This document shows, in pieces, positions 1 to 12,653 of a stretch of DNA of 12,653 bases. The stretch covers positions 1 to 12,653 of the forward strand of contig CAKRMO010000011.1 of NCBI GenBank assembly GCA_934364765.1. The letters are read 5' to 3'. Both the position numbers and the translations under genes were made by a program. Numbering within the stretch: the stretch's first letter is position 1; each line of letters starts with the position of its first letter. The stretch is from an uncultured Bacteroidaceae bacterium. GTDB lineage: Bacteria > Bacteroidota > Bacteroidia > Bacteroidales > Bacteroidaceae. The notes beneath the pieces are model-generated. The model was not told the origin of the DNA. It did no database searches and worked only from the letters and a program-made list of their open reading frames with translations.

Positions 1-62
1 GGGAAATCCTCTGTTGCCAGCGGCAGCGAAAGGCAGTAGTCCCTGATTGTCTCAATGTTCAT
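1..62 (-). CDS. MmcQ/YjbR family protein, N-terminal fragment
   Basis: An ATG at 62-60 on the minus strand opens a frame reading MNIETIRDYCLSLPLATEDF before the window ends. This matches the usual start of MmcQ/YjbR proteins (a short helix, then CLSLP, then a T/V-E-D-F-P stretch). Those are roughly 115-120-residue proteins with a cyanobacteria/CyaY-like double-wing DNA-binding fold whose physiological role is poorly defined. Only 20 complete codons are visible, so the family call rests on the N-terminal motif alone. The gene is divergent from the ferritin gene, with a 123-bp gap between the two starts. A plausible -7 box lies at 89-96. The family is fairly sure from the motif; no function is inferred. 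Confidence 0.7.
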   Translation of the reverse strand, partial: MNIETIRDYCLSLPLATEDF

Positions 63-88
63 ACAGCACAAATTTGCAATTGCATCCA

Positions 89-96
89 CAAAGTTA
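89..96 (-). promoter_or_regulatory. Candidate -7 box for the MmcQ-like gene
   Basis: The minus strand reads TAACTTTG here, matching the Bacteroidota housekeeping -7 consensus TAnnTTTG, about 27 bases before the ATG. The nearest TTTG upstream (112-109) is only 12 bases away instead of the usual 19-21, so the -33 element is not convincing. A 10-bp perfect palindrome, TGCAATTGCA (75-84), lies just downstream and could be an operator or chance. Confidence 0.35.
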
Positions 97-185
97 CAAC
101 TTTTCCGGCAAAACCACGGCTGACACCGCCGCAGGTGGCATGGAATTTGTTTCATGACAACTGTACAACATAAAAACATAACGCT

Positions 186-707
186 ATGCTCAACAAAAAA
201 ATCGAAGAGGCACTCAACGCCCAGATAAACGCCGAAATGTGGTCGGCATACCTCTACCTGTCAATGGCGGCCCACTGCCACGCCAACGGCAACCCCGGAA
301 TGGGCAACTGGTTCGAGGTGCAGTTCCAGGAGGAGCAGGACCACGCGAAAATCCTGTTCAACTACATAATACAGCGCGGCGGACACGTGGAGCTGAAAGC
401 CATCGACGCCGTGCCTACAGAATGGAAGTCGCCGCTTGATGTGTTTGAAAGCACACTGGCCCACGAGCAGAAAGTAACAGAACTGATAAACAACCTGTTC
501 GCCCTCACCACGGCCGAAAACGACTACGCCACCCAAAGCATGCTCAAATGGTTTGTTGACGAGCAGGTGGAGGAAGAGGAAAACGCCCAGAACATAATCG
601 ACAACCTCAGGATGATAAAGGACAACGGCTACGGGCTTTACATGCTCGACAAGGAACTCGCCGCCCGCACATACACGCAGGCCGCGCCCCTCGCCGCAAA
701 AGCCTGA
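186..707 (+). CDS. ftnA: Bacterial non-haem ferritin
   Basis: This 173-residue protein is a cytosolic iron-storage ferritin. It oxidises Fe(II) at a di-iron centre and stores the mineral inside a 24-subunit shell. All ferroxidase ligands known from E. coli FtnA are at identical positions: E17, E50, H53, E94 and Q127, with E130 for the third iron site and E49 and E126 also present. The N-terminal four-helix bundle is complete. There is no haem-ligand methionine pattern to suggest bacterioferritin, and the length is typical of FtnA. The last ten or so residues form a short Ala-rich tail. The ATG is preceded by an A-rich leader with no clear Shine-Dalgarno sequence, which is normal in Bacteroidota. 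The gene is monocistronic: it is divergent from the gene on its left and closed by a strong terminator at 732-773. I saw no convincing Fur box or promoter in the 123-bp upstream gap. Confidence 0.96.
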   Translation: MLNKKIEEALNAQINAEMWSAYLYLSMAAHCHANGNPGMGNWFEVQFQEEQDHAKILFNYIIQRGGHVELKAIDAVPTEWKSPLDVFESTLAHEQKVTELINNLFALTTAENDYATQSMLKWFVDEQVEEEENAQNIIDNLRMIKDNGYGLYMLDKELAARTYTQAAPLAAKA

Positions 708-731
708 ACGCCCGCACAGGCACAGCCAAAA

Positions 732-773
732 CAAGGCTTGCACCGCCAGCATGGTGCAAGCCTTGCTTTTTTT
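732..773 (+). terminator. Rho-independent terminator of ftnA
   Basis: A perfect 13-bp stem (CAAGGCTTGCACC at 732-744 pairing with GGTGCAAGCCTTG at 753-765) encloses an 8-base loop and is followed by C and seven T residues. It begins 25 bases after the ferritin stop codon and separates ferritin from the glycosyltransferase. Confidence 0.93.
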
Positions 774-863
774 CATGCCACGGCGCACAACGCGAATGGG
801 GAAAAAACATTAGCCGCACCGTGCAATAATTCGCCGCCGCCGGGGTTAATAATATAGTTTATC

Positions 864-1631
864 ATGAAAGTATCCATAATAACAGCCACCTTCAACAGTG
901 CCGGCACAATAGCCGACACCCTTGAGTCCGTCCTCGCCCAAACCTACAGCGACATAGAATACATTGTGGTTGACGGCGACTCACGCGACGCCACCATGGA
1001 CATAGTGAACAGCTACGCCCCGAAGTTCGGCGGGCGCATGAGGACAGTGAGCGAAAAGGACAACGGAATATACGACGCGATGAACAAGGGCATACGCATG
1101 GCCACCGGCGACATTGTGGGCATACTCAACTCGGACGACTACTTCACCTCCGCCGACGTGGTTGAGAAAATGGTCAGCGCGTTCCCGCCCGAAGCCGACG
1201 CGGTTTACGGCGACGTGCATTTCATACGCGACAAACGCCCCGGCGTGGTTGTGAGATACTACAGCTCGCGGCTGTTCCGCAGGTTCATGCTGCGCTTCGG
1301 CTTCATGCCCGCCCACCCGTCGCTCTACGTGCGCCGCGAAGTGTTCGCACGCGTGGGACTCTACAAGACCGACTACAAAATAGGCTCCGACTTTGAAATG
1401 GTGGTGAGGATGTTCCACACGTTCGGCATTGCCACACGCTACATACCGCTCGACTTCGTAACAATGAGAATGGGCGGCGCAAGCACGCGCAACATAGCCA
1501 GCCGCGCAACGCTGCTGAAGGAGGACACAAGGGCGTGCCGGGAAAACGGAATACACACAAACCGCTGCGTGATGTCGTGCAAATACATCTTCAAGCTAAT
1601 GGAATACCGCCCCGGAGTGTTCCAGAGATAA
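864..1631 (+). CDS. Family 2 glycosyltransferase (GT-A fold, WcaE-like)
   Basis: This 255-residue inverting glycosyltransferase transfers a sugar from a nucleotide-sugar donor, probably at the cytoplasmic face during surface-polysaccharide or glycan assembly. The N-terminus (residues 3-11, VSIITATFN) is the first GT-A strand. VVDGDSRDAT (35-44) is the nucleotide-binding region. SEKDNGIYDAMNKG (63-76) is typical of the WcaE-like subgroup, and NSDD (89-92) is the metal-binding DXD equivalent. The motif HPSLYVRR in the second half fits the acceptor-side region of the same subgroup. There is no membrane segment or signal peptide. The length is about usual for the group. The gene stands alone between two terminators, not inside a polysaccharide locus, so its acceptor and pathway cannot be read from context. 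The donor sugar is unknown. Confidence 0.9.
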   Translation: MKVSIITATFNSAGTIADTLESVLAQTYSDIEYIVVDGDSRDATMDIVNSYAPKFGGRMRTVSEKDNGIYDAMNKGIRMATGDIVGILNSDDYFTSADVVEKMVSAFPPEADAVYGDVHFIRDKRPGVVVRYYSSRLFRRFMLRFGFMPAHPSLYVRREVFARVGLYKTDYKIGSDFEMVVRMFHTFGIATRYIPLDFVTMRMGGASTRNIASRATLLKEDTRACRENGIHTNRCVMSCKYIFKLMEYRPGVFQR

Positions 1632-1668
1632 CCGTTGCGAATAACCTGTAAAACAACTATAAGCAATT

Positions 1669-1698
1669 GCAAAAAGCCCCTGTTCAAGGCTTTTTTGC
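1669..1698 (+). terminator. Terminator after the glycosyltransferase gene
   Basis: GCAAAAAGCC (1669-1678), a 9-base loop, then GGC and six T residues form a hairpin with a short GC core and an A/T-rich base. It lies 38 bases past the stop codon. The A-tract on the left makes it potentially bidirectional, but no minus-strand gene ends here. Confidence 0.75.
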
Positions 1699-1772
1699 AT
1701 TAAAATGCAGGACAAAAAAGAAAAACCGCCGTATTTTCAACATTTTACCAAGGCTTTACGGGAATAAATTGC

Positions 1773-1780
1773 TAAATTTG
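1773..1780 (+). promoter_or_regulatory. Candidate -7 box for pnp
   Basis: TAAATTTG matches the Bacteroidota -7 consensus TAnnTTTG. Transcription would start near 1785-1790 and leave an A-rich leader of about 55-60 bases before the pnp ATG. No TTTG occurs at the expected 19-21-base distance upstream; only TTTA sequences at less suitable spacing are seen, so the -33 element is weak. Confidence 0.45.
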
Positions 1781-1843
1781 TGCGTTTTTACGGACATAGG
1801 AATTTTCAGACGCAAGAAGAAAACAATAAAAGAAGATTTTTAG

Positions 1844-4150
1844 ATGAATGTTATCAAGAAAACTGTTTCGCTTCCCGACGGACGGGAGATAAGCATCGAA
1901 ACAGGCAAACTGGCGAAGCAGGCCGACGGCGCGGTGATGCTCAGCATGGGCGGCACAATGCTCCTCGCAACGGTATGCGCCGCACAAGACGCAGTACCGG
2001 GCACAGACTTCATGCCCTTGCAGTGCGATTACAGGGAACGCTACTCAGCGGCAGGACGCTTCCCCGGAGGGTTCACAAAACGCGAGGGACGCCCCTCCGA
2101 CTACGAGATTCTCACGAGCCGTCTCGTTGACCGCGCACTCCGCCCGCTGTTCCCCTCGAACTATCATGCCGAAGTTTACGTAAACATAATGCTCTTCTCC
2201 GCCGACGGAGTGGACATTCCCGATGCACTTGCAGGCTTCGCCGCTTCGGCTGCGCTCGCCTGCTCCGACATTCCCTTTGAAGCTCCGATTTCAGAGGTCC
2301 GCGTGGCGCGCATAAACGGCGAATACGTGATAGACCCCACATACGAGCAGATGAAGAACGCCGACATGGACATCATGGTGGGAGCTACCGAAGAGAACAT
2401 CATGATGGTGGAAGGCGAAATGGACGAAGTTTCCGAGCAGGACCTCATCGGCGCGCTCAAGGCCGCACACGAGGCAATAAAGCCCATGTGCCGCCTGCAG
2501 AAAGAGCTTGCCAAGGAACTCGGCACCGATGTGAAGCGCGAATACTGCCACGAGGACAACGACGAGGAATTGCGCGAAGAGGTGCGCAAAGCCTGCTACG
2601 ACAAGGCATACCAGATTACGCTTGAAGGAAACCGCGACAAGCACGCACGCGAAGACGCTTTCTCGCAAATACGCGAGGACTTCAAGGAAGCATACGCGGC
2701 AGCGCACACCGACTTGGGCGAGGACGAGCTTGAAGAAAAGAACGCGCTTATCGACCGCTACTATTACGATGTGGAGCGCGATGCCATGCGCCGTTGCGTT
2801 CTTGACGAAAAACGCCGCCTTGACGGTCGCGGATATGCAGACATACGCCCCATTTGGTGTGAGGTAAGCCCGCTTCCCGCGCCCCACGGCTCGGCAATAT
2901 TCACACGCGGGGAAACACAGGCACTCGCAACCTGCACGCTCGGCACAAAGCTCGACGAGAAGATGATTGACGAAGTGCTCGACCAGAGCATGCAGCGTTT
3001 CCTCCTGCACTACAACTTCCCGCCCTATTCAACAGGCGAGGCCAAGGCGCAAAGGGGCACCGGCCGCCGCGAAATAGGACACGGACACCTTGCATGGCGC
3101 GGACTGAAGGGCCAGATACCCGCAGATTTCCCCTACACCGTGCGCGTGGTGAGCGACATACTCGAATCCAACGGCTCGTCTTCAATGGCAACCGTATGCG
3201 CCGGCTGTCTGGCGTTGATGGATGCGGGCGTTCCCTTGAAGAACCCGGTTTCGGGTATTTCAATGGGCCTCATCAAAAACCCCGGAGAGGAGAAATACGC
3301 AGTGCTTAGCGACATTCTCGGCGACGAGGACCACCTTGGCGACATGGACTTCAAGACCACCGGCACGCCAAACGGCCTCACCGCAACTCAGATGGACATA
3401 AAATGCGACGGACTTTCATACGAAATCCTTGAAAAGGCGCTCATGCAGGCCAAGGAAGCACGCGAACACGTTTTGGGCGAAATGCTCAAGGTTCTCGACA
3501 AGCCGCGTGCCGACTTCAAGCCGCAGGTTCCGCGCATCGAGGCGTTCGACATTCCCAAGGAATACATCGGCGCAGTGATAGGCCCGGGCGGAAAGATTAT
3601 CCAGGGCATACAGGAAGAGACCGGAGCCACCATAACCATCGAGGAAACCGACGGCGTTGGCAAGGTGCAGGTTTCAGCCCCAAACAAGGAGAGCATAGAC
3701 GCCGCCGTTGCAAAAATCCGCGCCATTGTGGCAATTCCAGAAGTTGGCGAAACCTACGAGGCAAAAGTTGTGAGCATCATGCCATACGGCTGCTTCGTGG
3801 AATTCATGCCGGGCAAGGAAGGACTGCTCCACATAAGCGAGCTCGACTGGAAACGCTACGACACCGTTGAAGACGCAGGCATACACGAGGGCGACAAGAT
3901 AAGCGTAAAGCTTCTCGACATAGACGCAAAGACAGGCAAGTTCCGCCTTTCCCACCGCGCACTGCTCGAAAAGCCCGAAGGCTACGAGGAACGTCCGGCA
4001 CGCCGCCCGCGCCGCGAACCGAGAGGTGAACGCCGCGACGGCAACGACCGCCGCGAACGCCACAACGGCCCGCGCCACGAGCGCGGAGAGCGTTTTGAGC
4101 ACAAAGGCAACGAAGGCGCAGAACCCCAAAACAACGAAACGCAGGAGTAA
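1844..4150 (+). CDS. pnp: Polyribonucleotide nucleotidyltransferase (PNPase)
   Basis: This 768-residue protein is the phosphorolytic 3'-to-5' exoribonuclease that degrades mRNA to nucleoside diphosphates and acts in the cytosol as a trimer. Domains in order are: a first RNase PH domain (from residue 1); the linker helical domain (about 220-320, highly charged); a second RNase PH domain containing [15 protein letters not shown] and the catalytic block [12 protein letters not shown] (493-504), whose D496 and D502 match E. coli D486 and D492; a KH domain around 560-620 with IGPGGK; and an S1 domain from about 635 to 707. Residues from about 712 onward form a low-complexity Arg/Glu/Asn/His-rich tail absent from minimal PNPases. 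The ATG is preceded by an A-rich leader. The gene is monocistronic, with a promoter at 1773 and a terminator at 4216. The usual rpsO neighbour is not present. Confidence 0.97.
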
Positions 4151-4215
4151 AACCTCCGGCAAACATACCGTCGGGGACATGGCGTAAAAACCACCCCCCC
4201 GCAAAGCAAACCAAA

Positions 4216-4253
4216 CCGCAGCCCCGGCATCTTTGCCAAGGCTGCGGCTTTTT
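4216..4253 (+). terminator. Rho-independent terminator of pnp
   Basis: An 8-bp GC-rich stem (CCGCAGCC at 4216-4223 pairing with GGCTGCGG at 4240-4247) contains an inner 4-bp stem (GGCA/TGCC around TCTT) and is followed by CTTTTTG. It ends pnp transcription before the convergent receptor gene. Confidence 0.9.
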
Positions 4254-4378
4254 GTTACCGATTATCATTACGCTGCGGATGCTCGTTTTCTTTTAAGTCT
4301 TTGGTTTACAGGCGATTACCCTTGTCTTACAAATTATACATAAGCATCTGTTTCCCAATACATTGCAAGGCGCGAAAA

Positions 4379-4456
4379 TTATGTCTGACGTAGTTTGAAT
4401 TATGTCTGATATAATTTTTTCTACATAGGACATAGTTTTTTCTATGTCCTATGTAG
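4379..4456. repeat. Repeat array A: four 15-bp units at 21-bp period
   Basis: The units start at 4379, 4400, 4421 and 4442, exactly 21 bp apart: TTATGTCTGACGTAG, TTATGTCTGATATAA, CTACATAGGACATAG and CTATGTCCTATGTAG. Spacers are TTTGAA, TTTTTT and TTTTTT. Units three and four are exact reverse complements and form a 15-bp hairpin with a T6 loop, followed by TTTT. The array is framed by GCGAAAA on the left and TTTTCGGC on the right, so the whole element has roughly inverted ends. It sits between convergent genes. I recognise no named repeat family. The periodicity and the copies in two other gaps make a real element certain; its function is open. Confidence 0.93.
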
Positions 4457-4481
4457 TTTTCGGCAGCTGTGCATACTGTCA

Positions 4482-7061
4482 TTAAAATCTGCCTTTTTCG
4501 GCATTTCCCGCGCCGGTGCCTTTGTACTTGCTTCCTGCTGTGTTGAAACGATAACTCACTGTCAGTTTCACAGCTTGCGAGTCGCTGTAATTCCATTTGT
4601 TGAGGAGCATACTTGTGCCGTAAGTGAACATCGAATTGCGGGCTGTGCGGAATATGTCCGTAGCCTGCAGTTGGAACGTCCAACGGTCCAGTTTTTTCAC
4701 CACCCCAAAATTCATCTGCCAGCTCGGTTTCAGCGTCGCTATGGTCATGTCGCCGTATGTGTTTCCCGAAAAGTCCAAAGACAGAATGTAGTCATTCGGA
4801 AGGGAAAACGAGTTGTACCAACTTGCAAACAGCAGCGGGTTGTTCATTTTCCGGGTTGCGCCGTTGTGCATCATTTTGAAATCCTGCCCCATCAAAGTCA
4901 GGGACAACCGTGGCGACCACAGTCCGAACTTCGGGGTAAGGGACAGCGTTGCCGTGTATTTGTTAAGATGCGGATTGTTGACATTGTTGAAAATGTTCAG
5001 CGGCCTGTCCCCGCCGGGCTGCAAGTCAATCCGGCTGACTATGGCATCGTCAACATGCTGAAAGCTTGCGCCAAAATAAATCCAACGCCAAACGCCCGTC
5101 ATTGTGATGTCGTGGATTATTTCGGGCTGCAGCTGCGGATTTCCTTTCTCGTAGGTAAATACATCATCGTACTGCATATTGCTGCTCAGCTCGCGGTAGG
5201 ACGGGCGGCGCGTCTTCATCGCATAGTCAACAGACAGTTTCGCCTTTCCTATGGGGAACGATATGCCGGCGTTGGGGAACACCTTGTCATACTTTCGGCT
5301 TTGCCCTGCCATCCACACTTCATGCTCGTAATAGTCCGATGTGGTGTGCTCATACCTTAGTCCCGCCCCCAAGTCAGCCTTTCCCAAGGAAATGTCGTAA
5401 GACAAGAACCCTGCATATTTGCTCTCCTTTATATGGTCATCGGTTGAGGCGATTACCAGTTGCTCGTTGTCGTATGTTTGCTTGCGGTTTGTGAAGACAA
5501 GTTCGCCTCCGGCTTCCACCCTGCCCTTTCCCACAGGATGCGAAAACACGAGTTTGGAGGCGAACATCAGATTGTCGGCCTTGTTCACGCTGTTCACGCG
5601 GCTTTCCCCCGAAAGGCTGCTTAGTTCCTTTATATTCTGCACCGCCTTGTCCTGACGCACCACCAAATCGTTGTCGAAAGCTATGCTCCACTTGCCGGCT
5701 TCACCCCTGTAATAGGCATTCACATAGTGGGCTGGGGCGCGGCGGTGGTCCCATTTCAGGTCGTAGCGTATATTCTCCTGCTCCACGCCGTTTTTCGCCA
5801 CGGTCTGCAACGTCGGCCAAGCGGAGGTGCTGTTCGGCATAAAGCTCGTATTATATTTTGCCCCGATTGAATGGTGTTCGTTGAGCGCGTAGTTGAAGCC
5901 TATATTCGAAGAGATTGAAGCCATGCTCTTTGGAAATATGCCTATGTCGCTGTGCATCCGCCACACGTCGCCGTCTTTCCAAACAGTTTTGTTGTCTTTC
6001 TGATGCTGATACCGCTGCACCAAATCGTAATACAGTCCGCCAAACACGTCCAAGCCACCCTTGCGCCAATTCAAGTTGCCCCCCTCCGACAAAGACAGGT
6101 AACGCCCCTGGCGCAGCATGGAAGTAAAGTCCCCACTCAAACCGTCGCCCCGCTTTCTTACGGTTTTGACCGTAATCACCGCCCTTGTGGTGGCATCGTA
6201 TTTGTCGCCGGGATTATTGTTTAAGACCACCGAGGCTATATCCTTGGAACTTATTCTTTCAAGTTCGGTGTTGTCGGTAAGTTTCCTGCCGTTGACATAA
6301 ATCTGCGCACTGCCTTTGCCATAGACACTGAACTTGCCGTCGCCGCCATACACGCCCGGCACTTGCGCAAGCACATCGTTCGCCGTACCCGCCTCGCTCA
6401 AAGGCGTGCCCTTGACTTGGGTAACGAATCCTTCGCTTGTCATCTCAAAAGTTTTCCGCAGCCCTTTCACCACAACCTTTGACAGGTTCACGGTATCCGC
6501 CTTCAAGACCATTTCCCCTATTTCACCAGCGTTGCAAATGCCGTAAGCCGTTTTATAGCCCACGCAGCTCACCCTTACGATAGCTTTCTTCGCCTCACAA
6601 GGTATCACGAAACGGCCGTCCTCATTCGTTACGCCGCCTGTGACAAAGGCGGAGTCGCCGGCATCCAACAGGGCGACACTGGCAAACTCTACAGGGCGAC
6701 GGCGAACGTCAATGATGCGCCCCATCATCTTTGAGGAGGTTTTCCGGGTGCATTCCACAATGATGACATTATCCAACTGCGTCATCCTTATGGGATAGAA
6801 GCCTATCAACTGGCGTATGGCGCCGGGCACACTCATGTTGCGGATGCTTTTCGTTACAGTAAAATCCTCCAACTCGTCGTAAACGAAATTTATGGCGTAT
6901 TCATCCTGCGCGGCATTCAGATCTTTCAATGCCGCAGAGAACGACACATTATTATATTGGCGTGTGATGCGCTGGGCTGTGGCAGACAGTTGGGAGCAAA
7001 CGGCGCAAAGCGCCACCAACATTGCTTTCCTGAAAAAAATCATCACTTTCAAAAGTTCCAT
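4482..7061 (-). CDS. TonB-dependent-type outer-membrane receptor/transducer (STN + carboxypeptidase-like + plug + beta-barrel)
   Basis: From the ATG at 7061 this is an 859-residue outer-membrane protein. Residues 1-30 are a Sec signal peptide ending SATAQ. Residues 31-107 are an STN (secretin/TonB N-terminal) signalling domain. Residues 108-190 are a carboxypeptidase-regulatory-like domain (GRIIDVRRRPVEFASVALLD). A plug follows (DVLAQVPGVYGGDG, then IYVNGRKL), and then a long beta-barrel ending in SKYKGTGAG and a C-terminal Phe, as in the outer-membrane beta-barrel family common in Bacteroidota. It is not SusC-like and has no SusD partner. The STN domain and the upstream sigma/anti-sigma pair suggest it relays ligand occupancy to the anti-sigma factor; the ligand is unknown. 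The frame can also open at TTG 7073 or ATG 7043. I chose 7061 because it is an ATG with GGAAAAGGA just upstream, although the spacing is short. Expression probably comes from the ECF-type promoter at 7107-7136. Confidence 0.92.
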   Translation of the reverse strand: MELLKVMIFFRKAMLVALCAVCSQLSATAQRITRQYNNVSFSAALKDLNAAQDEYAINFVYDELEDFTVTKSIRNMSVPGAIRQLIGFYPIRMTQLDNVIIVECTRKTSSKMMGRIIDVRRRPVEFASVALLDAGDSAFVTGGVTNEDGRFVIPCEAKKAIVRVSCVGYKTAYGICNAGEIGEMVLKADTVNLSKVVVKGLRKTFEMTSEGFVTQVKGTPLSEAGTANDVLAQVPGVYGGDGKFSVYGKGSAQIYVNGRKLTDNTELERISSKDIASVVLNNNPGDKYDATTRAVITVKTVRKRGDGLSGDFTSMLRQGRYLSLSEGGNLNWRKGGLDVFGGLYYDLVQRYQHQKDNKTVWKDGDVWRMHSDIGIFPKSMASISSNIGFNYALNEHHSIGAKYNTSFMPNSTSAWPTLQTVAKNGVEQENIRYDLKWDHRRAPAHYVNAYYRGEAGKWSIAFDNDLVVRQDKAVQNIKELSSLSGESRVNSVNKADNLMFASKLVFSHPVGKGRVEAGGELVFTNRKQTYDNEQLVIASTDDHIKESKYAGFLSYDISLGKADLGAGLRYEHTTSDYYEHEVWMAGQSRKYDKVFPNAGISFPIGKAKLSVDYAMKTRRPSYRELSSNMQYDDVFTYEKGNPQLQPEIIHDITMTGVWRWIYFGASFQHVDDAIVSRIDLQPGGDRPLNIFNNVNNPHLNKYTATLSLTPKFGLWSPRLSLTLMGQDFKMMHNGATRKMNNPLLFASWYNSFSLPNDYILSLDFSGNTYGDMTIATLKPSWQMNFGVVKKLDRWTFQLQATDIFRTARNSMFTYGTSMLLNKWNYSDSQAVKLTVSYRFNTAGSKYKGTGAGNAEKGRF

Positions 7062-7106
7062 ATCCTTTTCCAATCCTTACACTATCTATACAGTTGAGCC
7101 AAGTGG

Positions 7107-7136
7107 AAAAACTAAGCAAAACTATTACTTTTTTCA
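7107..7136 (-). promoter_or_regulatory. Probable ECF sigma-factor promoter of the receptor gene
   Basis: On the minus strand this block reads TGAAAAAAGT, a short variable stretch, then GTTTTGCTTAGTTTTT. It is identical at 28 of 30 positions to the block at 8626-8655 before the sigma gene, and both lie just upstream of a start codon (45 and 27 bases). I infer that TGAAAAAAGT is the -35-like element and the CTTAG region the -10-like element. The conservation in non-coding DNA is seen directly; the sigma assignment is inferred from the gene cluster. Confidence 0.75.
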
Positions 7137-7227
7137 ATATTTGCTGATATAATCACCAATTCCATGCCATGCCCCACTCTGTATGAGCCATTCCATGCAA
7201 ACGCCGCCGCACCCAATGTCCGCAAAA

Positions 7228-7305
7228 CTACATCAGACATAGAAAAAACTACATAGGACACAGAAAAAATTATATCAGACATAATTCAAATTACATCAGA
7301 CCTTT
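7228..7305. repeat. Repeat array B: four 15-bp units at 21-bp period
   Basis: The units start at 7228, 7249, 7270 and 7291: CTACATCAGACATAG, CTACATAGGACACAG, TTATATCAGACATAA and a decayed TTACATCAGACCTTT. Spacers are AAAAAA, AAAAAA and TTCAAA. Its third unit with both flanks is a 28-bp exact inverted match to array A (7263-7290 against 4394-4421). The array therefore lies in the opposite orientation to A, and the two flank the receptor gene. It sits about 90 bp upstream of the receptor promoter and about 130 bp after the anti-sigma stop. Confidence 0.92.
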
Positions 7306-7438
7306 TTTCACCATTCTCAAACATCTGGCAAACAGTAACTTACAAAGAAATTTTTGAATTACGCTTAATCCTTTGCAAATCAGCGTTTTGAAGCGTGCAA
7401 ATCGTTTTTCTTGCAAAATTCATAGCACTCCACTTTTA

Positions 7439-8110
7439 TCACTCCACTTTCAAAGTCTCGTTGCAGGGCGAATAACTAATCTGTATGCGGTCGAAAGCGT
7501 TCAGGATTTCGATGTTCCGCTGCAATGTCTTAGTCTTGTCCCAATTGAAGAAGATGCGGATATGCCGGGCTTTTTCGTTTTCAAACTCCGCCTTGACACG
7601 ATAAAACGCCGCAAGCTGCGAAACAACGTCGCCAAGCTCTGCATTGTCGAACACAACAGGCTTGAAACTGAGAGTGTCCGGCTTTACCGCAACTTCCGCC
7701 TTTGCGCTGTCCCGCTTGTCGGACACGGCCAACTCCGCATTTGTTTTCGGAGCGTTGCTTGAGGACACGGAACGGAATGCACCCGAACGGATAGCCGCAA
7801 AAGTGATGCCCGAAAGAAAAATGAACCCGATGATCGAGGCGGCAACCTTGGAACGGCTGCCCGGCTTGGGGATTTTCACGGCCGCAATCCCGTGTTGGGC
7901 GGAAAACTCCCTCCACGCCTCGCCAGCATTAACTTTCTTGGGATTTGCTCTCCGCATTGCCATTCTTGCCATCGCCATGCCGTGAAAAAGTTCCTTTATG
8001 TCCTCATCGGCAAGCAGGGCTTCCACCTGCCCGTCGGTATAGCGTTCGGGATGTTCCTGCATATCGAAGAACATCATCCGTTTTTCTTCCTTATTCATTT
8101 CCTTTGTCAT
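7439..8110 (-). CDS. Anti-sigma factor, compact DUF4974-type (FecR-like)
   Basis: This 223-residue single-pass inner-membrane protein is expected to bind and hold the ECF sigma factor until the receptor signals. Residues 1-80 are cytoplasmic, with the HPERYTDGQVEALLADEDIKELF stretch typical of Bacteroidota FecR-type N-termini (split here at residues 20-42). Residues 89-107 form the membrane segment. Residues 108-150 are an Ala/Ser/Lys linker. Residues 151-221 (VVFDNAELGDVVSQLAAFY onward) match the DUF4974 domain that normally follows a FecR domain. A full FecR domain of about 100 residues is missing, since there is no space between membrane and DUF4974. The ATG overlaps the sigma stop codon as ATGA (8110-8107), implying translational coupling. 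The domain assignment is by eye and fairly sure; the anti-sigma role is inferred from the family and position. Confidence 0.85.
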   Translation of the reverse strand: MTKEMNKEEKRMMFFDMQEHPERYTDGQVEALLADEDIKELFHGMAMARMAMRRANPKKVNAGEAWREFSAQHGIAAVKIPKPGSRSKVAASIIGFIFLSGITFAAIRSGAFRSVSSSNAPKTNAELAVSDKRDSAKAEVAVKPDTLSFKPVVFDNAELGDVVSQLAAFYRVKAEFENEKARHIRIFFNWDKTKTLQRNIEILNAFDRIQISYSPCNETLKVE

Positions 8111-8598
8111 TGTCTTGCTCCTTTTAATTGTTTTCTGATCCAGTCCAACGCCTGCGAGATATGGTTATAAACCGTAACCTTGCTCACCCCGACTTCATCA
8201 GCCACCTCCTTGTAGGATTTCCCTTGCAGATAGCGCAAACGGAATATCAGCTTGCGCACAGGCGGTTCGAGGTTGTCGATGAGAAGTTTCACCCGGTCGA
8301 GACGCTCATCGGTATCTTCCGAAATAATTGCGTCTGCGTCATCAAGCAACAGCTTTGCCACTTTCTCCTTAACGCTTTTGCGGGCTATCAGGTTAAGGCT
8401 GCGGTTGCGGACGCTCCGCATCAGATACCCTTCCTCGCTTCCGGGCATCAGCACAACGCCGTCTGCAAGAATTTGCGTGAACACGTCGCTCACCACGTCC
8501 TTGCTTTCGTCGTCATCATTGAGAATGCATCTGGCCAGATTGTACATCCTCCCGTAATGCCGGCGAAACAGACGCTCTATGTCCTTTTCCTGTCTCAT
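8107..8598 (-). CDS. ECF RNA polymerase sigma-70 factor (Bacteroidota type)
   Basis: This 163-residue extracytoplasmic-function sigma factor directs RNA polymerase to a small regulon. Region 2 spans about residues 5-70: FRRHYGRMYNLARCILND, then DVVSDVFTQI, and LMRSVRNRSLNLIARK for the -10 contact. Region 4 spans about 108-160: LEPPVRKLIFRLRYLQGKS, then a helix-turn-helix YKEVADEVGVSKVTVYNHI for the -35 contact. There is no region 1 or 3, as expected for ECF factors, and the length is typical. The start is an ATG 27 bases below the conserved promoter block at 8626-8655. The gene overlaps the anti-sigma gene by 4 bp. The sequence context suggests autoregulation and activation of the receptor gene. 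Its signal and full regulon are unknown. Confidence 0.94.
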   Translation of the reverse strand: MRQEKDIERLFRRHYGRMYNLARCILNDDDESKDVVSDVFTQILADGVVLMPGSEEGYLMRSVRNRSLNLIARKSVKEKVAKLLLDDADAIISEDTDERLDRVKLLIDNLEPPVRKLIFRLRYLQGKSYKEVADEVGVSKVTVYNHISQALDWIRKQLKGARQ

Positions 8599-8625
8599 AC
8601 ACTACCAATACCGTTTGGCGAGGTC

Positions 8626-8655
8626 AAAAACTAAGCAAAACAATGACTTTTTTCA
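8626..8655 (-). promoter_or_regulatory. Probable autoregulatory ECF promoter of the sigma/anti-sigma operon
   Basis: The minus strand carries TGAAAAAAGT, four variable bases and GTTTTGCTTAGTTTTT, matching the receptor promoter block (7107-7136) at 28 of 30 positions with no gaps. It ends 27 bases before the sigma ATG, which would give a very short leader. Two such blocks in one cluster suggest that the sigma factor controls its own operon. Confidence 0.75.
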
Positions 8656-8676
8656 TTTTTCATGAATGGAACATAC

Positions 8677-8716
8677 AAAAAAACGGACGGCTGCGAATTT
8701 GCGCAATGCCGCCCGT
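8677..8716 (-). terminator. Rho-independent terminator of thrA
   Basis: Read on the minus strand, ACGGGCGGC (8716-8708) pairs with GCCGTCCGT (8691-8683), with one G-T pair. An inner TGCG/CGCA stem continues it, and seven T residues follow. It begins 27 bases after the thrA stop and isolates thrA from the sigma operon. Confidence 0.9.
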
Positions 8717-8743
8717 AGGTTATTTCTTCTTCCGCACCCGACG

Positions 8744-11173
8744 TCAGATGTTCGCCACGCTCATTATGTCGGCAAACACCCCGGCGGCGGTAACGTCAGC
8801 TCCCGCCCCGTAGCCCTCAATGTGCATGGGGTACTCGCGGTAGCGTTCGGTGGTTATCAGTATCACGTTGTTCGAGCCTTCGAGATGGTAGAACGGATGG
8901 TTCTTGTCAACCGCCACAAGCCCCACGCTCGTCTTTCCGTTGTCCATCCGCGCCACGTAGCGCCAGCGTTTCCCCTCTTTTTCAAGCGTCATGCGCCTCT
9001 CCTCAAAGCCGGCGTCAAGTTCAGGGAGGCGTTCCAGAAACTCTTCGAGCGGCATCTTCATGAACTCCTCAGGTATGAACGGCGTTGCAACCACATCGGC
9101 GGTGTCAACACAGTACCCCGCCTCGCGGGCAAGTATCACAAGTTTGCGCATAACGTCCTTTCCGCTCAAGTCAATGCGCGGGTCGGGCTCGCTGTAACCG
9201 GCCTCGCGCGCCATTTGCACGGCGCGGCTGAAAGGAGTTTCCTTGGAAATTTCGTTGAACACGAAGTTGAGCGTGCCGCTGAGCACCGCCTCGATGCAAA
9301 GTATCTTGTCGCCGCTGCCGGTAAGGTCGTTAATGGTGTTGATAATAGGAAGTCCCGCGCCCACATTGGTCTCGAATAGGAATTTCACGCCTTTTGCACG
9401 TGCGGTGTCCTTCAGCCTGCGGTAGTTTTCGTACGGCGATGAGGCGGCAATCTTGTTTGCAGCCACCACGCTTATGTTGTTCTCGAAAAGTGTCTGGTAA
9501 AGCCCCGCCACTTCCTCGCTCGCCGTGCAGTCCACAAACACCGAGTTGAAAATGTTCATGCCGAGAATTTCCCTTTTCAGGCGTTCTATGTCGCTCTTGC
9601 CGCCCTGTTTCAAGGCTTCCCTATAGTTTTCAAGCGCAATGCCGTCGCGGCTGAACACGGCGTTGTGTCCGCTCGCAATGCCTACGACATTAAGCTGCAA
9701 CCCTCGTGTACGCATAAGTTTCTCGCGCTGCGAAGATATTTGTTCAAGCAGCTTCGAGCCTACCGTGCCCACTCCGCACACAAAAAGGTTTAGCACCTGG
9801 TATTCGCTAAGGAAGAAACTGTCGTGTATAACGTTCAGCGACTTGCGCAAAAGGTCTCTCTCCACGACAAACGACACGTTTGTCTCGGTAGCTCCCTGCG
9901 CCATTGCCACTATGTTTATTCCGTTGCGCCCCAAGACCCCGAAAAGTTTTCCTGCAACGCCCGGGGTGTGCTTCATCTTGTCGCCCACAACCGCCACAGT
10001 CGAAAGGTTTCCGGTGAGTATTGCGGGGTTCATCGCACCGGTCGCAATCTCCTTTGCAAACTCGGCATCAAGCACGCGGCGAGCCTTCTCCCCGTCGTCG
10101 TCGGTTACGCAAAGGCTCGTGCTGGCCTCCGAGGAAGTCTGCGCCACAAGGAACACGCTCACGCCGTTGTCGGCAAGTGTCGAGAATATCCTGCGGTTCA
10201 CGCCTATCACGCCCACCATCGAAGGACCGCTCACCGTTACGAGGCTCGTGTTCCTTATTGACGAGATGCCCTTTATGGCACGCTTGTCGTCAATAGGCCC
10301 TTTGTGGATTATGCTGCCCGGCGCATCGGGGCGGAACGTGTTCTTAACGTATATGGGAATGCCCTTGACGCGCACCGGATATATGGTTGGCGGGTAAATC
10401 ACCTTAGCCCCGAAGTTGCAAAGCTCCATTGCCTCGTTGTACGAAAGCTCGTCAATGGTATAGGCGTTGGGGATAACCCTCGGGTCGGCGGTCATGAAAC
10501 CGTCAACGTCGGTCCAAATTTCAAGGGCCGAGGCATCGAGCGCGGCCGCCACTATTGCCGCCGTGTAGTCAGAGCCTCCGCGTCCAAGGTTGGTTGTCTC
10601 GCCATCGTTAAGGTCGCTCGCTATGAAGCCGCCAATCACCGCAGCCTCGGGCACAGGCGAGAAAGTCTGCCTCACAAGGCGCAGCGTGTTGTCGAAGTCC
10701 ACAAGGTTGCGCCCCTGGCGGCGTGTGGTCTTGATAAACTGCCTTGAATCATACCACGCCGCGCCGTCAATGAGCGAGGAGACTATCTGCGATGACAGCC
10801 TTTCGCCGTAACTCACAATTACATTGGCTGTTTTTTCGGTCAGGTCGCGTATAAGATACACGCCGTGGTATATGCTGCGCAGTTCGTCAAACAGCTCCTC
10901 AACTTTCTCGCACAGCGCGTCGCGCACCACCCCGTCGGGAATAACGGTGTCTATCATGTTGCGGTGGCGCTCTATCATTGCGTTGAACTCGTCGCGATAT
11001 GCCGCATCGCCTGCCGACGCCAGCCGCGACGTGGCTATAAGCCTGTCGGTGATGCCGCCAAGCGCGGATACCACAACTATCACAGGCTCGTCGATTGCCT
11101 CAACTATTTTCTTCAAGTTGAGTATGCTCTCCGGCGAGCCTACGGATGTTCCTCCGAATTTAAGTACTCTCAT
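8744..11173 (-). CDS. thrA: Bifunctional aspartate kinase / homoserine dehydrogenase
   Basis: This 809-residue cytosolic enzyme catalyses the first and third steps of the aspartate pathway to threonine and methionine: ATP-dependent phosphorylation of aspartate, and NAD(P)H reduction of aspartate semialdehyde to homoserine. The kinase domain starts with KFGGTSVG (5-12) and has GRGGSDYT (197-204) and CNFGAKVIYP near 250. ACT-type regulatory repeats lie around 310-450 (GISSIRNTSLVTVSG, then VAVVGDKMKHTPGVAGKLF). The NAD-binding motif GVGTVG is at 467-472, and the dehydrogenase ends with GYGAGADVTAAGVFADI near the C-terminus. The order and length match the ThrA/MetL fusion class. The ACT region argues for end-product feedback, but which amino acid inhibits cannot be told here. 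It has its own candidate promoter (11220-11227) and terminator, with no thrB, thrC or apgM neighbour. Confidence 0.97.
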   Translation of the reverse strand: MRVLKFGGTSVGSPESILNLKKIVEAIDEPVIVVVSALGGITDRLIATSRLASAGDAAYRDEFNAMIERHRNMIDTVIPDGVVRDALCEKVEELFDELRSIYHGVYLIRDLTEKTANVIVSYGERLSSQIVSSLIDGAAWYDSRQFIKTTRRQGRNLVDFDNTLRLVRQTFSPVPEAAVIGGFIASDLNDGETTNLGRGGSDYTAAIVAAALDASALEIWTDVDGFMTADPRVIPNAYTIDELSYNEAMELCNFGAKVIYPPTIYPVRVKGIPIYVKNTFRPDAPGSIIHKGPIDDKRAIKGISSIRNTSLVTVSGPSMVGVIGVNRRIFSTLADNGVSVFLVAQTSSEASTSLCVTDDDGEKARRVLDAEFAKEIATGAMNPAILTGNLSTVAVVGDKMKHTPGVAGKLFGVLGRNGINIVAMAQGATETNVSFVVERDLLRKSLNVIHDSFFLSEYQVLNLFVCGVGTVGSKLLEQISSQREKLMRTRGLQLNVVGIASGHNAVFSRDGIALENYREALKQGGKSDIERLKREILGMNIFNSVFVDCTASEEVAGLYQTLFENNISVVAANKIAASSPYENYRRLKDTARAKGVKFLFETNVGAGLPIINTINDLTGSGDKILCIEAVLSGTLNFVFNEISKETPFSRAVQMAREAGYSEPDPRIDLSGKDVMRKLVILAREAGYCVDTADVVATPFIPEEFMKMPLEEFLERLPELDAGFEERRMTLEKEGKRWRYVARMDNGKTSVGLVAVDKNHPFYHLEGSNNVILITTERYREYPMHIEGYGAGADVTAAGVFADIMSVANI

Positions 11174-11193
11174 TTTATAATGTATGTCAAAAC

Positions 11194-11207
11194 GGCGGTC
11201 TCCCGCC
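11194..11207 (-). promoter_or_regulatory. Leader hairpin before thrA
   Basis: On the minus strand GGCGG-GAGA-CCGCC forms a 5-bp all-GC stem closed by a GNRA-type tetraloop (GAGA), about 20 bases before the thrA ATG and close to the predicted transcript start. It would be stable in RNA. It could protect the 5' end or modulate initiation. There is no leader peptide or long T-tract, so a classical attenuator is not supported. Confidence 0.45.
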
Positions 11208-11219
11208 TCACTTTCGGCG

Positions 11220-11227
11220 CAAAATTA
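11220..11227 (-). promoter_or_regulatory. Candidate -7 box for thrA
   Basis: The minus strand reads TAATTTTG, matching TAnnTTTG, about 46 bases before the thrA ATG. No TTTG is found at the standard 19-21-base distance; the nearest similar sequence, TTTA at 11256-11253, is 25 bases away. The assignment rests on the -7 match and its position. Confidence 0.45.
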
Positions 11228-11577
11228 CTTATTCCCCATAAACTATTGGCAGTAAATTCCACTTTTTTACCCCCCGTTATCCCCAATATTTGCCGTTTGG
11301 CGCGGCAAACGCAAAAACTTGAGCGACTTTTCATGCAAACCGTTGCAAGCCTGTAAAAAATTATCCGCACATTTGCGAAAACACTGCACAACGCACGCTG
11401 CACGGGGCATGGCGGGGCACATATTTGCCCTCACGCCAAAACAGGGGGAAACGCCGCTTGGGCATTCATGGGCGCAAAGCGCAAGCTTCATCGCAAGACT
11501 TTGATTTACAACGGCTTGCCCTTGCTCTGAAAATTCTTTGTATGTTGTTGTCTGTCAGACGTTTGCAATGGCGAAAA

Positions 11578-11655
11578 TTATATCAGATATAATTTAAACT
11601 ACATAGGACATAGAAAAAATTATGTCTGATGTAGTTTTTCCCATGTCCTATGCAG
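11578..11655. repeat. Repeat array C: four 15-bp units at 21-bp period
   Basis: The units start at 11578, 11599, 11620 and 11641: TTATATCAGATATAA, CTACATAGGACATAG, TTATGTCTGATGTAG and CCATGTCCTATGCAG. Spacers are TTTAAA, AAAAAA and TTTTTC. The two core types alternate, and the first two units face the last two, so the array is close to an inverted repeat around its centre. It is preceded by GCGAAAA, as array A is. It begins 57 bases after the trxA stop codon. Confidence 0.92.
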
Positions 11656-11712
11656 TTTTTCCCGCAAATCGCGGCGGCGTTTTCCCGCGCCCTCCGCCCT
11701 TGCGTATGCCTG

Positions 11713-12027
11713 TCAAAGTATCGCCTTCAAGGCGTCCTCGAGCTGCTGCTTGGGAACTCCGCCCACAATGGTGTTGGCGAGCTTTCCGTCCTTGAAGTAA
11801 AGCACTGCCGGAATCGACATTATGCCGAAACGCTGGGCTATGCCGCCGTTGTCGTCCACATTGCAGCGCCCCACAACCGCCTTGCCGGAGTAAGCCTCCG
11901 CTATCTGCTCCACAAAAGGCATGATGTGGCGGCAAGGGCCGCACCAGTCGGCATAAAAATCAACCATCAAAGGCTTTCCGCCGTTGAGCAGTTCGTCAAA
12001 ATTCTGTTCTGTAATCTCAATCTCCAT
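11713..12027 (-). CDS. trxA: Thioredoxin
   Basis: This 104-residue cytosolic thiol-disulfide oxidoreductase reduces protein disulfides and is itself reduced by thioredoxin reductase. The active site WCGPC is at residues 28-32, the buried Asp of classical thioredoxins is D23, and the cis-proline is P73 in SIPAV. An extra cysteine, C55, lies in RCNVDDN. Length and motifs are those of classical TrxA, with no signal peptide, so it is not one of the periplasmic TlpA/ResA-like proteins common in Bacteroidota. The ATG at 12027 has a weak leader. It lies 52 bp downstream of the lipoprotein gene on the same strand, close enough for cotranscription, although no terminator or clear promoter decides this. 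Another thioredoxin paralogue elsewhere is likely, so the symbol is by family. Confidence 0.95.
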   Translation of the reverse strand: MEIEITEQNFDELLNGGKPLMVDFYADWCGPCRHIMPFVEQIAEAYSGKAVVGRCNVDDNGGIAQRFGIMSIPAVLYFKDGKLANTIVGGVPKQQLEDALKAIL

Positions 12028-12079
12028 ATTGTCGCTGTTTTTGTTTCTTCACCAACATATATTCAAACGCCGTGCCACG

Positions 12080-12457
12080 TCAATAGTCGCGCACAAAATA
12101 TGTATAGTCGCCGTCATCGAAATAAAGCCTGAAAGCATTTCGCCCGTCAAAGTCTATGTCCCAAGTTTCCGACGGACGGTCATTGTAGCGGAAGTATATC
12201 CTGTGGCGGCCCGCCTCCCACAGAAAAGAGGAGTAGTCAGACACATGGCCGTAATCGTATTGCGTAATCATTCCCATGCCGTCCCCGTAGAACTTCACAA
12301 CGGTGTAGGAGTTTCCCCAGTCGTCCTGCGTGTGCCACTCCCCCACAAGCCTGTCCTCGCTCCACCATGCATCGTCCCCACACGAGGAAAACGCGAAAAC
12401 AAGCGTGAGCATGAGCAGCAACACAGCCGCCGACGGTCTTTTGACAATAACTTTCAT
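12080..12457 (-). CDS. Small lipocalin-like lipoprotein
   Basis: This 125-residue lipoprotein has a charged start (MKVIVKRP), a hydrophobic stretch (residues 10-23), and a lipobox ending SSC with the acylated cysteine at C26. After it come G-D-D, a short acidic stretch compatible with a Bacteroidota surface-export signal. The mature part (LVGEWHTQ, then repeated aromatic strands such as IYFRYND and FRLYFDD) looks like a lipocalin-type small beta-barrel, starting with the usual V-G-E/K-W motif. No function is known to me. The open frame continues to 12649, but the 12457 ATG is chosen because it places the signal peptide correctly and lies just after a promoter (12481-12513). It is divergent from the gene at 12576 and 52 bp upstream of trxA. 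Confidence 0.8.
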   Translation of the reverse strand: MKVIVKRPSAAVLLLMLTLVFAFSSCGDDAWWSEDRLVGEWHTQDDWGNSYTVVKFYGDGMGMITQYDYGHVSDYSSFLWEAGRHRIYFRYNDRPSETWDIDFDGRNAFRLYFDDGDYTYFVRDY

Positions 12458-12480
12458 TTTCAAAACATTTTGCATCAGTG

Positions 12481-12513
12481 CAAAAGTACGCATTTTTTTC
12501 ATAACTTTGCAAG
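12481..12513 (-). promoter_or_regulatory. Candidate promoter of the lipoprotein gene
   Basis: The minus strand shows TACTTTTG (12488-12481, matching TAnnTTTG) with CTTG at 12513-12510, a 21-base gap, close to the Bacteroidota -33/-7 layout. Transcription would begin near 12474, about 17 bases before the ATG. Confidence 0.5.
12502..12509 (+). promoter_or_regulatory. Candidate -7 box for the gene at 12576
   Basis: TAACTTTG on the plus strand matches TAnnTTTG and would give a leader of about 55-60 bases before the ATG at 12576. It abuts the -33 region of the opposing lipoprotein promoter, so the two promoters share DNA. No good -33 TTTG is seen at 19-21 bases. Confidence 0.4.
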
Positions 12514-12575
12514 GAAACTGTTTTCCGCCCAAGCCAGCGGCGGAAATGCGTAAGGAATAACTAAAAAACAGATAT

Positions 12576-12653
12576 ATGAAAGCCCAGAAACTCATCCTTT
12601 CCGCGTTCGCACTCTGCGCCGCATTTGCAGGTGCAAACGCCCAGAGCAAAACC
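12576..12653 (+). CDS. Secreted protein of unknown function, N-terminal fragment
   Basis: An ATG at 12576 opens a frame of 26 codons that continues past the window. MKAQKLILSAFALCAAFAGA followed by NAQSKT is a clear Sec signal peptide: KAQK n-region, hydrophobic core, and ANA before Q as a signal peptidase I site. The cysteine within the core is not in a lipobox. It was chosen as real because of the signal peptide, the A-rich AACTAAAAAACAG leader and the -7 box at 12502. Nothing of the mature protein is visible, so no function can be given. Confidence 0.75.
   Translation, partial: MKAQKLILSAFALCAAFAGANAQSKT

Follow-up and report, generated by a model that had tools for sequence, protein, structure and literature searches.

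Intergenic arrays of dyad units at a spacing of two helical turns in Bacteroidales, a repeat defined by geometry

A stretch of 12,653 bp from an uncultured Bacteroidaceae bacterium (assembly GCA_934364765.1, contig CAKRMO010000011.1, positions 1 to 12,653), referred to here as the window, holds three intergenic arrays, each consisting of four 15-bp units at a 21-bp period. The defining feature of these arrays is geometry, that is, dyads placed every 21-23 bp and most often four in number, and not sequence; the geometry recurs with unrelated letters in related genomes. The arrays may serve as places where four dimers of a putative DNA-binding protein dock together, in an arrangement of Lrp-like geometry, a reading to which we give a probability of about 0.45, slightly short of even odds.

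The three arrays of the window

An earlier note on this DNA had described three gaps, each with four 15-bp units whose starts lie exactly 21 bp apart, and this was confirmed. The arrays and their units are as follows, with mismatches counted against the pattern given in that note.

Array 1: 4379..4456, no strand assigned; four 15-bp units, 21-bp period, starts 4379, 4400, 4421 and 4442; spacers TTTGAA, TTTTTT and TTTTTT
Array 1, unit 1: 4379..4393, plus strand; TTATGTCTGACGTAG, TG core, 1 mismatch
Array 1, unit 2: 4400..4414, plus strand; TTATGTCTGATATAA, TG core, 0 mismatches
Array 1, unit 3: 4421..4435, minus strand; CTACATAGGACATAG (letters on the plus strand), CT core, 0 mismatches
Array 1, unit 4: 4442..4456, plus strand; CTATGTCCTATGTAG, CT core, 0 mismatches
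Array 2: 7228..7305, no strand assigned; four units, 21-bp period, starts 7228, 7249, 7270 and 7291; spacers AAAAAA, AAAAAA and TTCAAA
Array 2, unit 1: 7228..7242, minus strand; TG core, 0 mismatches
Array 2, unit 2: 7249..7263, minus strand; CT core, 1 mismatch
Array 2, unit 3: 7270..7284, minus strand; TG core, 0 mismatches
Array 2, unit 4: 7291..7305, minus strand; TG core, half decayed, 3 mismatches
Array 3: 11578..11655, no strand assigned; four units, 21-bp period, starts 11578, 11599, 11620 and 11641; spacers TTTAAA, AAAAAA and TTTTTC
Array 3, unit 1: 11578..11592, minus strand; TTATATCAGATATAA, full dyad with 7/7 pairs, 1 mismatch
Array 3, unit 2: 11599..11613, minus strand; CT core, 0 mismatches
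Array 3, unit 3: 11620..11634, plus strand; TG core, 0 mismatches
Array 3, unit 4: 11641..11655, plus strand; CT core, 2 mismatches

The unit pattern of the note holds for eleven of the twelve units, which lie 0-2 mismatches from its two 15-mers, and the twelfth (7291-7305) lies at 3. Two core types, TG and CT, occur in mixed orientation, and unit 3 of array 1 is the exact reverse complement of unit 4. In REP/BIME elements with a RAYT, a GTAG or CGTC tag marks the foot of the palindrome. By eye, seven of the twelve units end in GTAG when both strands are considered; units of other genomes, for example AAACAATATTGTTT, lack such a tag. Two further points of the description stand in part. The 6-bp spacers are mostly A/T, but three of the nine contain one G or C; some units are quasi-palindromes with up to 7 of 7 pairs, but others are weak, and the overall range is 2-7 of 7. 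When the window was matched to itself at lags 15-30, lag 21 was best with 31/42 bases and the runner-up reached 25. A degenerate pattern found five pairs of adjacent units in the window and none in any of 200 dinucleotide shuffles.

Distribution in related genomes

It had also been claimed that the arrays are a maintained, dispersed and intergenic family that is not due to chance, with four units at a fixed phase as the telling feature, and this is upheld by the shuffles and by copies in two other genomes, G432 and G001. The closest relative of the window that was found is G432, whose fused aspartokinase/homoserine dehydrogenase ("ThrA", at 8744-11173 of the window as read by eye) is 86% identical. 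The search of relatives for further arrays that the note had proposed found them in both genomes: 270 kb of G432 contained 40 clusters, each with two or more family cores, and the 3.0 Mb of G001 contained 19 places. Of the G432 clusters, 38 come from pieces (255 kb) whose choice did not depend on arrays, and ten shuffles of these pieces yielded 0 or 1 cluster each. The main core in this genome is TTTGAG, and the third unit bears the GTCCTATG core of the window. In both the window species and G432, an array lies in a gap upstream of ThrA; the cores and the neighbour genes differ between the two.

G001 is a metagenome-assembled genome (MAG) labelled uncultured Phocaeicola sp., a genus other than that of the window, and the sequence profile used to scan it was derived from arrays of the window and of G001 itself. 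Unit number in the 17 G001 arrays that were fetched is four in 15, three in one and two in one. Among 393 genomes drawn from the order, no strong profile match was found except in G001, and among 14 genus mates of G001 only G397 gave matches, both of them weak. Weak matches in G133, G016, G156, G111 and G358 (L064-L068) are other 21-bp tandem arrays with different units, and those in G277 and G083 are, by eye, other 21-bp tandem arrays as well; homology is not claimed in either case. The weak matches in G369 and G053 show no array by eye.

A strict two-unit pattern, searched in a collection of species genomes, matched eight stretches, five of them in G001. In the two Clostridia MAGs, one place was found in G002 and three in G004, one of these with a mismatch; the place inspected in G004 has two units. 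No match was found in viral contigs for one strict two-unit pattern, in phages for window array 1, or in plasmids for one array each of G407, G001 and G432. Separately, a MAG labelled uncultured Bacteroidetes, isolate Umea1 (G003; L059-L061), holds 21-bp tandem arrays of 5 to 11 units, with TAGCGTCCGACGCTA as an example of the unit and AGGTCA as the spacer; the period equals that of the window and the spacer is not A/T.

Spacing as the common property of the arrays

A scan free of any motif looks for stretches that resemble themselves at a fixed lag, and it was applied to genomes that are mostly drafts. Since its threshold needs about three similar units, arrays of the G432 style are under-counted, with 5 self-matches in 255 kb against 38 motif clusters in the same pieces. 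G407, G580, G547 and G560 were taken up after arrays had turned up in a 20-kb sample of each, and the presence of arrays also guided part of the choice of G001 pieces.

In 270 kb of G432, 22 places were found at lag 21 as compared with 0-4 at each other lag from 16 to 31 (threshold 28/42, coding sequence included). Intergenic self-matches in six genomes, partly chosen for arrays, number 18, 45 and 8 at lags 21, 22 and 23 (71 in total) against 12 at all other lags from 13 to 40; places at multiples of the period, lags 41-46, also occur and lie beyond the lag-40 limit of the scan. Dyad units are present in 18 of 44 self-matches at lag 21, 53 of 74 at lag 22 and 9 of 12 at lag 23, and in 0 of 1 at lag 20 and 0 of 10 at lag 24, the background being 32 of 5000 random places that reach the dyad threshold. 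With duplicate arrays dropped, four units is the commonest size (44 of 82 arrays), followed by three (23), five (12), seven (2) and six (1); when the window and the 21-bp family of G001 are left out, four-unit arrays still make up 30 of 64. In the scanned pieces of these six genomes, which were partly chosen for arrays, dyad arrays can be detected at a density of 2-10 per 100 kb. As controls, 150 kb of E. coli K-12 gave two self-matches at lags 21-23, one of them at dyad score and both falling, by position, in the coding genes yacH and gfcA, and 235 kb from 20 more distant Bacteroidales genomes gave three, one with dyads.

The letters of the units are not shared. The 22- and 23-bp arrays of G001 have units unrelated in sequence, and dyad arrays in random samples of the family have units such as GGGACTC-nn-AGTCCC, TTGATGTACATCAAA and CCAAGTGCTTGG. 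An explanation by phased A-tracts that curve the DNA was rejected, since the spacers of several 22-bp families are not A/T-rich.

Some details of these additional families can be recorded here. A second family of G001 (L149-L166) has CGCTCGCGAGCG-like units with ATATG spacers at 22 bp; lag 22 gave 20 places in 380 kb of this genome, one of which is a simple GT repeat. Lag 23 gave five places (L152:12386, L154:17265, L160:12551, L165:1687 and L166:12395), for example with AAGGTGTACACCTT units. At two G001 loci, L055:2805-2975 and G001:C24:39681-39848, a 21-bp array is directly followed by a 22-bp array, and the two composites are 75% identical. In G407 (L198-L211), CTAAGTAT-n-ATACTTAG units occur in several arrays whose outer units have other sequences and keep the 22-bp phase; some of these outer units are apparently, by eye, an outer inverted repeat.

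Copying and turnover of arrays

Over 83 bp, two G001 arrays at a distance of 4.9 kb from each other have the same sequence; their flanks are unrelated, and a target duplication is not visible. The arrays may be a miniature mobile element, and this duplicate with its unrelated flanks is noted in that connection. With one of two identical copies dropped, units within a G001 array agree at 11.85 of 15 positions on average and units of different arrays at 12.10, and 52 of 5000 shuffles are as low or lower. Therefore, since units within an array are no more alike than units between arrays, the arrays are not plain products of slippage and do not appear to have been built by local duplication. The G001 arrays draw on a small set of half-sites: of 112, 48 are CTATGTC, 13 CTAAGTC, 10 CTACATC, 10 TTATGTC, 9 CTACGTC and 7 CTATAAC.

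These likenesses bear directly on the possibility that the arrays are neutral minisatellites produced by replication slippage. Direct repeats and a copy number that varies from 3 to 7 would suit such an origin, but intergenic repeats seldom have another period, arrays most often have four units, within-array likeness is lacking in G001, and orientation is mixed in the window, so that we regard it as very improbable.

Turnover is seen at one gene end. Both G001 and G408 have a four-unit array on the 3' side of a SurA-like gene, with a period of 21 bp in G001 and of 22 bp in G408, where the units are unrelated and TGCATCGGGCAGTGCA-like. This locus was compared in four of the 14 genus mates of G001 (G408, G397, G407 and G410), and no array at threshold was found at it in G397, G407 or G410; G397 has one weak place at lag 21 (22/42), which looks like the two halves of its terminator. 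Since the downstream genes differ, the comparison reflects gene-end turnover and is not a clean empty-site test. For the C57 array, the flanks gave no match in genus mates in the orthologous-site comparison.

Gene context

Fifty-four arrays lie in clear gaps, of which 23 are convergent, 19 tandem and 12 divergent, while the available gaps number 105, 240 and 109 (454 in all). A further limit comes from the gene calls, as 26 of 80 arrays overlap called open reading frames; the caller is simple and greedy, and some of these frames are probably spurious. The earlier note placed each array after the 3' end of a minus-strand gene. This is so in the window, where the stop codons are 25, 133 and 57 bp away, but it is not a rule of the family, as arrays of G432 and G001 also occupy tandem and divergent gaps. 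No common class was found among 30 genes beside arrays in G001, G407 and G580, four of which have no Pfam match at 1e-8.

The excess in convergent gaps, together with helically phased dyads and the A/T-rich spacers of the 21-bp family, would be in line with local supercoiling or gyrase elements, that is, dyad clusters between genes that take up or draw in torsional stress and need no sequence-specific oligomer, a role that has been proposed for BIME-2. However, several 22-bp families (e.g. those of G407) lack A/T-rich spacers, and near-exact letters are kept within the family of a genome, which torsion alone does not need. An explanation of this kind appears unlikely.

Function as DNA or as RNA

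A hairpin function would predict that substitutions in one arm of a unit are compensated in the other. In seven unit families, half-unit pairing at most variable positions is near or below that of shuffled halves; in G001 it is 0.41 against 0.44 expected at position 4 and 0.66 against 0.68 at position 5, and one G580 position is far under expectation (0.13 against 0.50). Hairpin compensation is absent in the most closely tested family, the 21-bp family of G001. There, units of 14 arrays (one of two identical copies dropped) were read by position, which avoids the bias of choosing units by a dyad pattern. Their self-complementarity, 10.7-11.3 of 14 possible, is not above their complementarity to neighbours, 11.0-11.4 of 15, and units complement one another no better than they complement units of other arrays. 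Pairing schemes reach 22.2 (nested), 22.1 (adjacent) and 22.4 (crossed) of 30, and nested pairing with partners from other arrays reaches 23.0. A foldback model, in which unit 1 pairs with unit 4 and unit 2 with unit 3, is unsupported (1983 of 2000 permutations at least equal the observed value).

The alternative at the level of RNA is that the arrays are bidirectional terminators or stem-loops in the 3' untranslated regions of adjacent transcripts. A stop codon precedes all three window arrays, convergent gaps hold more than their share of arrays (23 of 54, such gaps being 105 of 454), and all five arrays that were folded beat their shuffles. On the other hand, an alignment of 20 rows, made from 17 arrays of which three were entered in both orientations, reached -3.0 kcal/mol on RNA consensus folding and has no stable shared fold; co-variation of the units is slight, and arrays occupy divergent gaps as well (12 of 54). 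No Rfam family matches any array, and seven other pieces gave three Rfam matches, two cobalamin riboswitches and a tRNA. At 4100-12100 of the window, 11 terminator-like matches were found, all of them outside the arrays, though the scan does no better than shuffles (mean 10.3). Separate structures are present beside arrays: a strong stem at 4213-4250, between the PNPase gene and array 1, is listed on the minus strand and, by eye, is followed by T's on the plus strand as well, and the SurA-like gene of G001 has its own hairpin-plus-T sequence, by eye, ahead of the array. Overall, a function as RNA seems quite improbable.

Candidate movers and binders

The likeness to REP/BIME elements that the earlier note had pointed out holds in that the arrays are short, intergenic and present in many copies, but the search for a RAYT-like Y1 transposase came out against a REP/BIME origin. 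The Y1 domain PF01797 was not found in the array-bearing genomes G407 and G560 (each nearly one contig) and G580 (a draft). It has one match in G001, one in G432 and two in G547; the G432 gene adjoins a TnpB-like gene, which by eye is IS605-type, and the G001 match is a short protein of 151 aa. Since PF01797 was not found in three array-bearing genomes, a RAYT seems not to be required.

Under a REP/BIME-like origin, the arrays would be clusters of selfish short palindromes that are moved single-stranded by the Y1 transposase. They are indeed dispersed, intergenic, species-specific and of high copy number in G432, the 83-bp stretch occurs twice in G001 with different flanks, and fold energies are strong. 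Against this stand the Y1 results, the strict phase of 21-23 bp, and the fact that clear hairpin compensation is not seen in most unit families; we consider such an origin improbable.

As to binders, the available part of PMC2995911 describes Lrp dimers that read clustered semi-palindromes of 13-17 bp, with centres two or three helical turns apart, and one member of the Lrp family that wraps about 100 bp around three dimers. For BarR, the available part of PMC10201364 predicts 4 to 5 sites of 15 bp at regular spacing and describes an octamer around which the DNA appears to be wrapped.

Proposed model and its weight

According to the docking-site reading, an array would be a site on double-stranded DNA at which one dimer binds each 15-bp unit through its two half-sites. 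Since the units lie two helical turns apart, all dimers would be found on one side of the DNA. The commonest count of four suggests four dimers, i.e. an octamer, which may bend or wrap about 80-90 bp between genes. The protein would fix the geometry and the letters would drift with its specificity, so that related genomes would carry unrelated arrays at a spacing of 21-23 bp, and whole arrays would spread by copying without their flanks. The arrays would thus work like an Lrp-type site, although identity as an Lrp site is not claimed; their role may be local chromosome packing or insulation of neighbouring genes.

Several observations weigh against the docking of four such dimers. The main clusters of G432 have three units and not four, 24 of 40 having three cores laid out at 21 bp. 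Dyad arrays at 21-23 bp were found in only 4 of 20 random family samples of 20 kb each (7 arrays), and G407 alone holds several unrelated unit families. In the window, the five CT-core units are poor dyads with 2-4 of 7 pairs. Lrp/AsnC genes number 2-4 in each of 16 genomes tested, and their number does not track arrays. The BarR sites, with spacers of 15-17 bp, are by arithmetic 30-32 bp apart, where the available text of PMC10201364 says two turns. Placement is unlike that of an Lrp-type promoter site, since 23 of the 54 arrays lie in convergent gaps with a start codon on neither side.

The pairing and folding results also carry points of this kind. Co-variation is clear at position 6 of one G407 family, where pairing is 0.96 and 0.65 is expected, and smaller excesses occur at a few positions, e.g. 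0.83 against 0.71 in a G580 family. The half-pairing test picked units by dyad pattern with 2-5 mismatches allowed, which biases it against double changes. RNA folds of all five arrays tried beat shuffles, with z of -9.7, -3.3 and -9.6 in the window and -11.6 and -9.7 in G001; strong folding is explained by the fact that inverted units must fold.

A broader proposal, which we hold to be doubtful, is that gut Bacteroidales have a geometry-coded chromosome element of four dyads at two helical turns, with tens to hundreds of copies per genome that would serve as positioned wrapping sites for nucleosome-like protein octamers. The ruler would stay constant while, within a genus, one set of recognised letters gives way to another, possibly through several binding proteins that are paralogous or were acquired horizontally and that have separate sets of arrays.

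A search of the open-licence literature gave no account of arrays like these in Bacteroidales, subscription journals and preprints being outside its scope. We regard the arrays as a variant form of intergenic repeat, and the class defined first by geometry may be a new kind. If the docking-site reading is true, the class is defined by spacing and not by sequence, and therefore ordinary repeat searches would miss its arrays; these would be a frequent feature of some gut Bacteroidales chromosomes. To our knowledge, little is known about chromosome packing in the phylum Bacteroidota, and the arrays would offer an entry to it through a simple question, namely which protein binds four dyads at two turns.

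Other features of the window

The gene content of the window is of Bacteroidales type, with genes for a ferritin-like protein, a glycosyltransferase, a TonB-type outer membrane protein, a FecR-like protein, an extracytoplasmic function (ECF) sigma factor and a thioredoxin, as well as ThrA and PNPase, the latter at 1844-4150 as read by eye. Neither a replication gene nor a cas gene was found among seven scanned window proteins, and Rfam gave 0 matches in the window at gathering score. A pair of 35-bp sequences, 89% identical, is found at 7107-7141 and 8626-8660, upstream of the outer membrane protein gene and the ECF sigma gene, both on the minus strand; these copies are perhaps the promoter of the sigma factor itself. 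G432 lacks the cassette of outer membrane protein, FecR and sigma genes between PNPase and ThrA (L124:7356-7600 as compared with 4150-8744 of the window), and its PNPase-ThrA gap has no array by eye.

Comparison with known systems

CRISPR arrays share regular spacing and partly palindromic repeats with the arrays described here, but the window spacers are 6 bp long, mostly A/T and not unique, and the units vary in sequence and orientation. Plasmid iterons have a period of about 21-22 bp, occur in few copies and are bound by protein, whereas the present arrays are dispersed and have dyad units in mixed orientation.

REP/BIME elements with RAYT, as described in the available parts of PMC2817692 and PMC3733652, are likewise short, intergenic, palindromic, species-specific and clustered repeats of high copy number, some of them evenly spaced. 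The present arrays differ in their strict two-turn period, in four as the commonest count, in a geometry that is kept while the sequence changes, and in that no Y1 gene was found in three array-bearing genomes.

Lrp/AsnC operators differ in that known cases regulate promoters, whereas many of the arrays lie in convergent gaps, have unit sequences unrelated to one another, and number tens to (by extrapolation) hundreds of copies per genome. Dyad quality is good in G001 and weaker in the window. The likeness lies in the layout: in the available parts of PMC10201364 and PMC2995911, the operators consist of three to five clustered 15-bp semi-palindromes that share one face of the helix and are placed at whole turns, and the arrays have a unit of 15 bp, within the range of 13-17 bp, and a period of 21-23 bp, which corresponds to whole turns.

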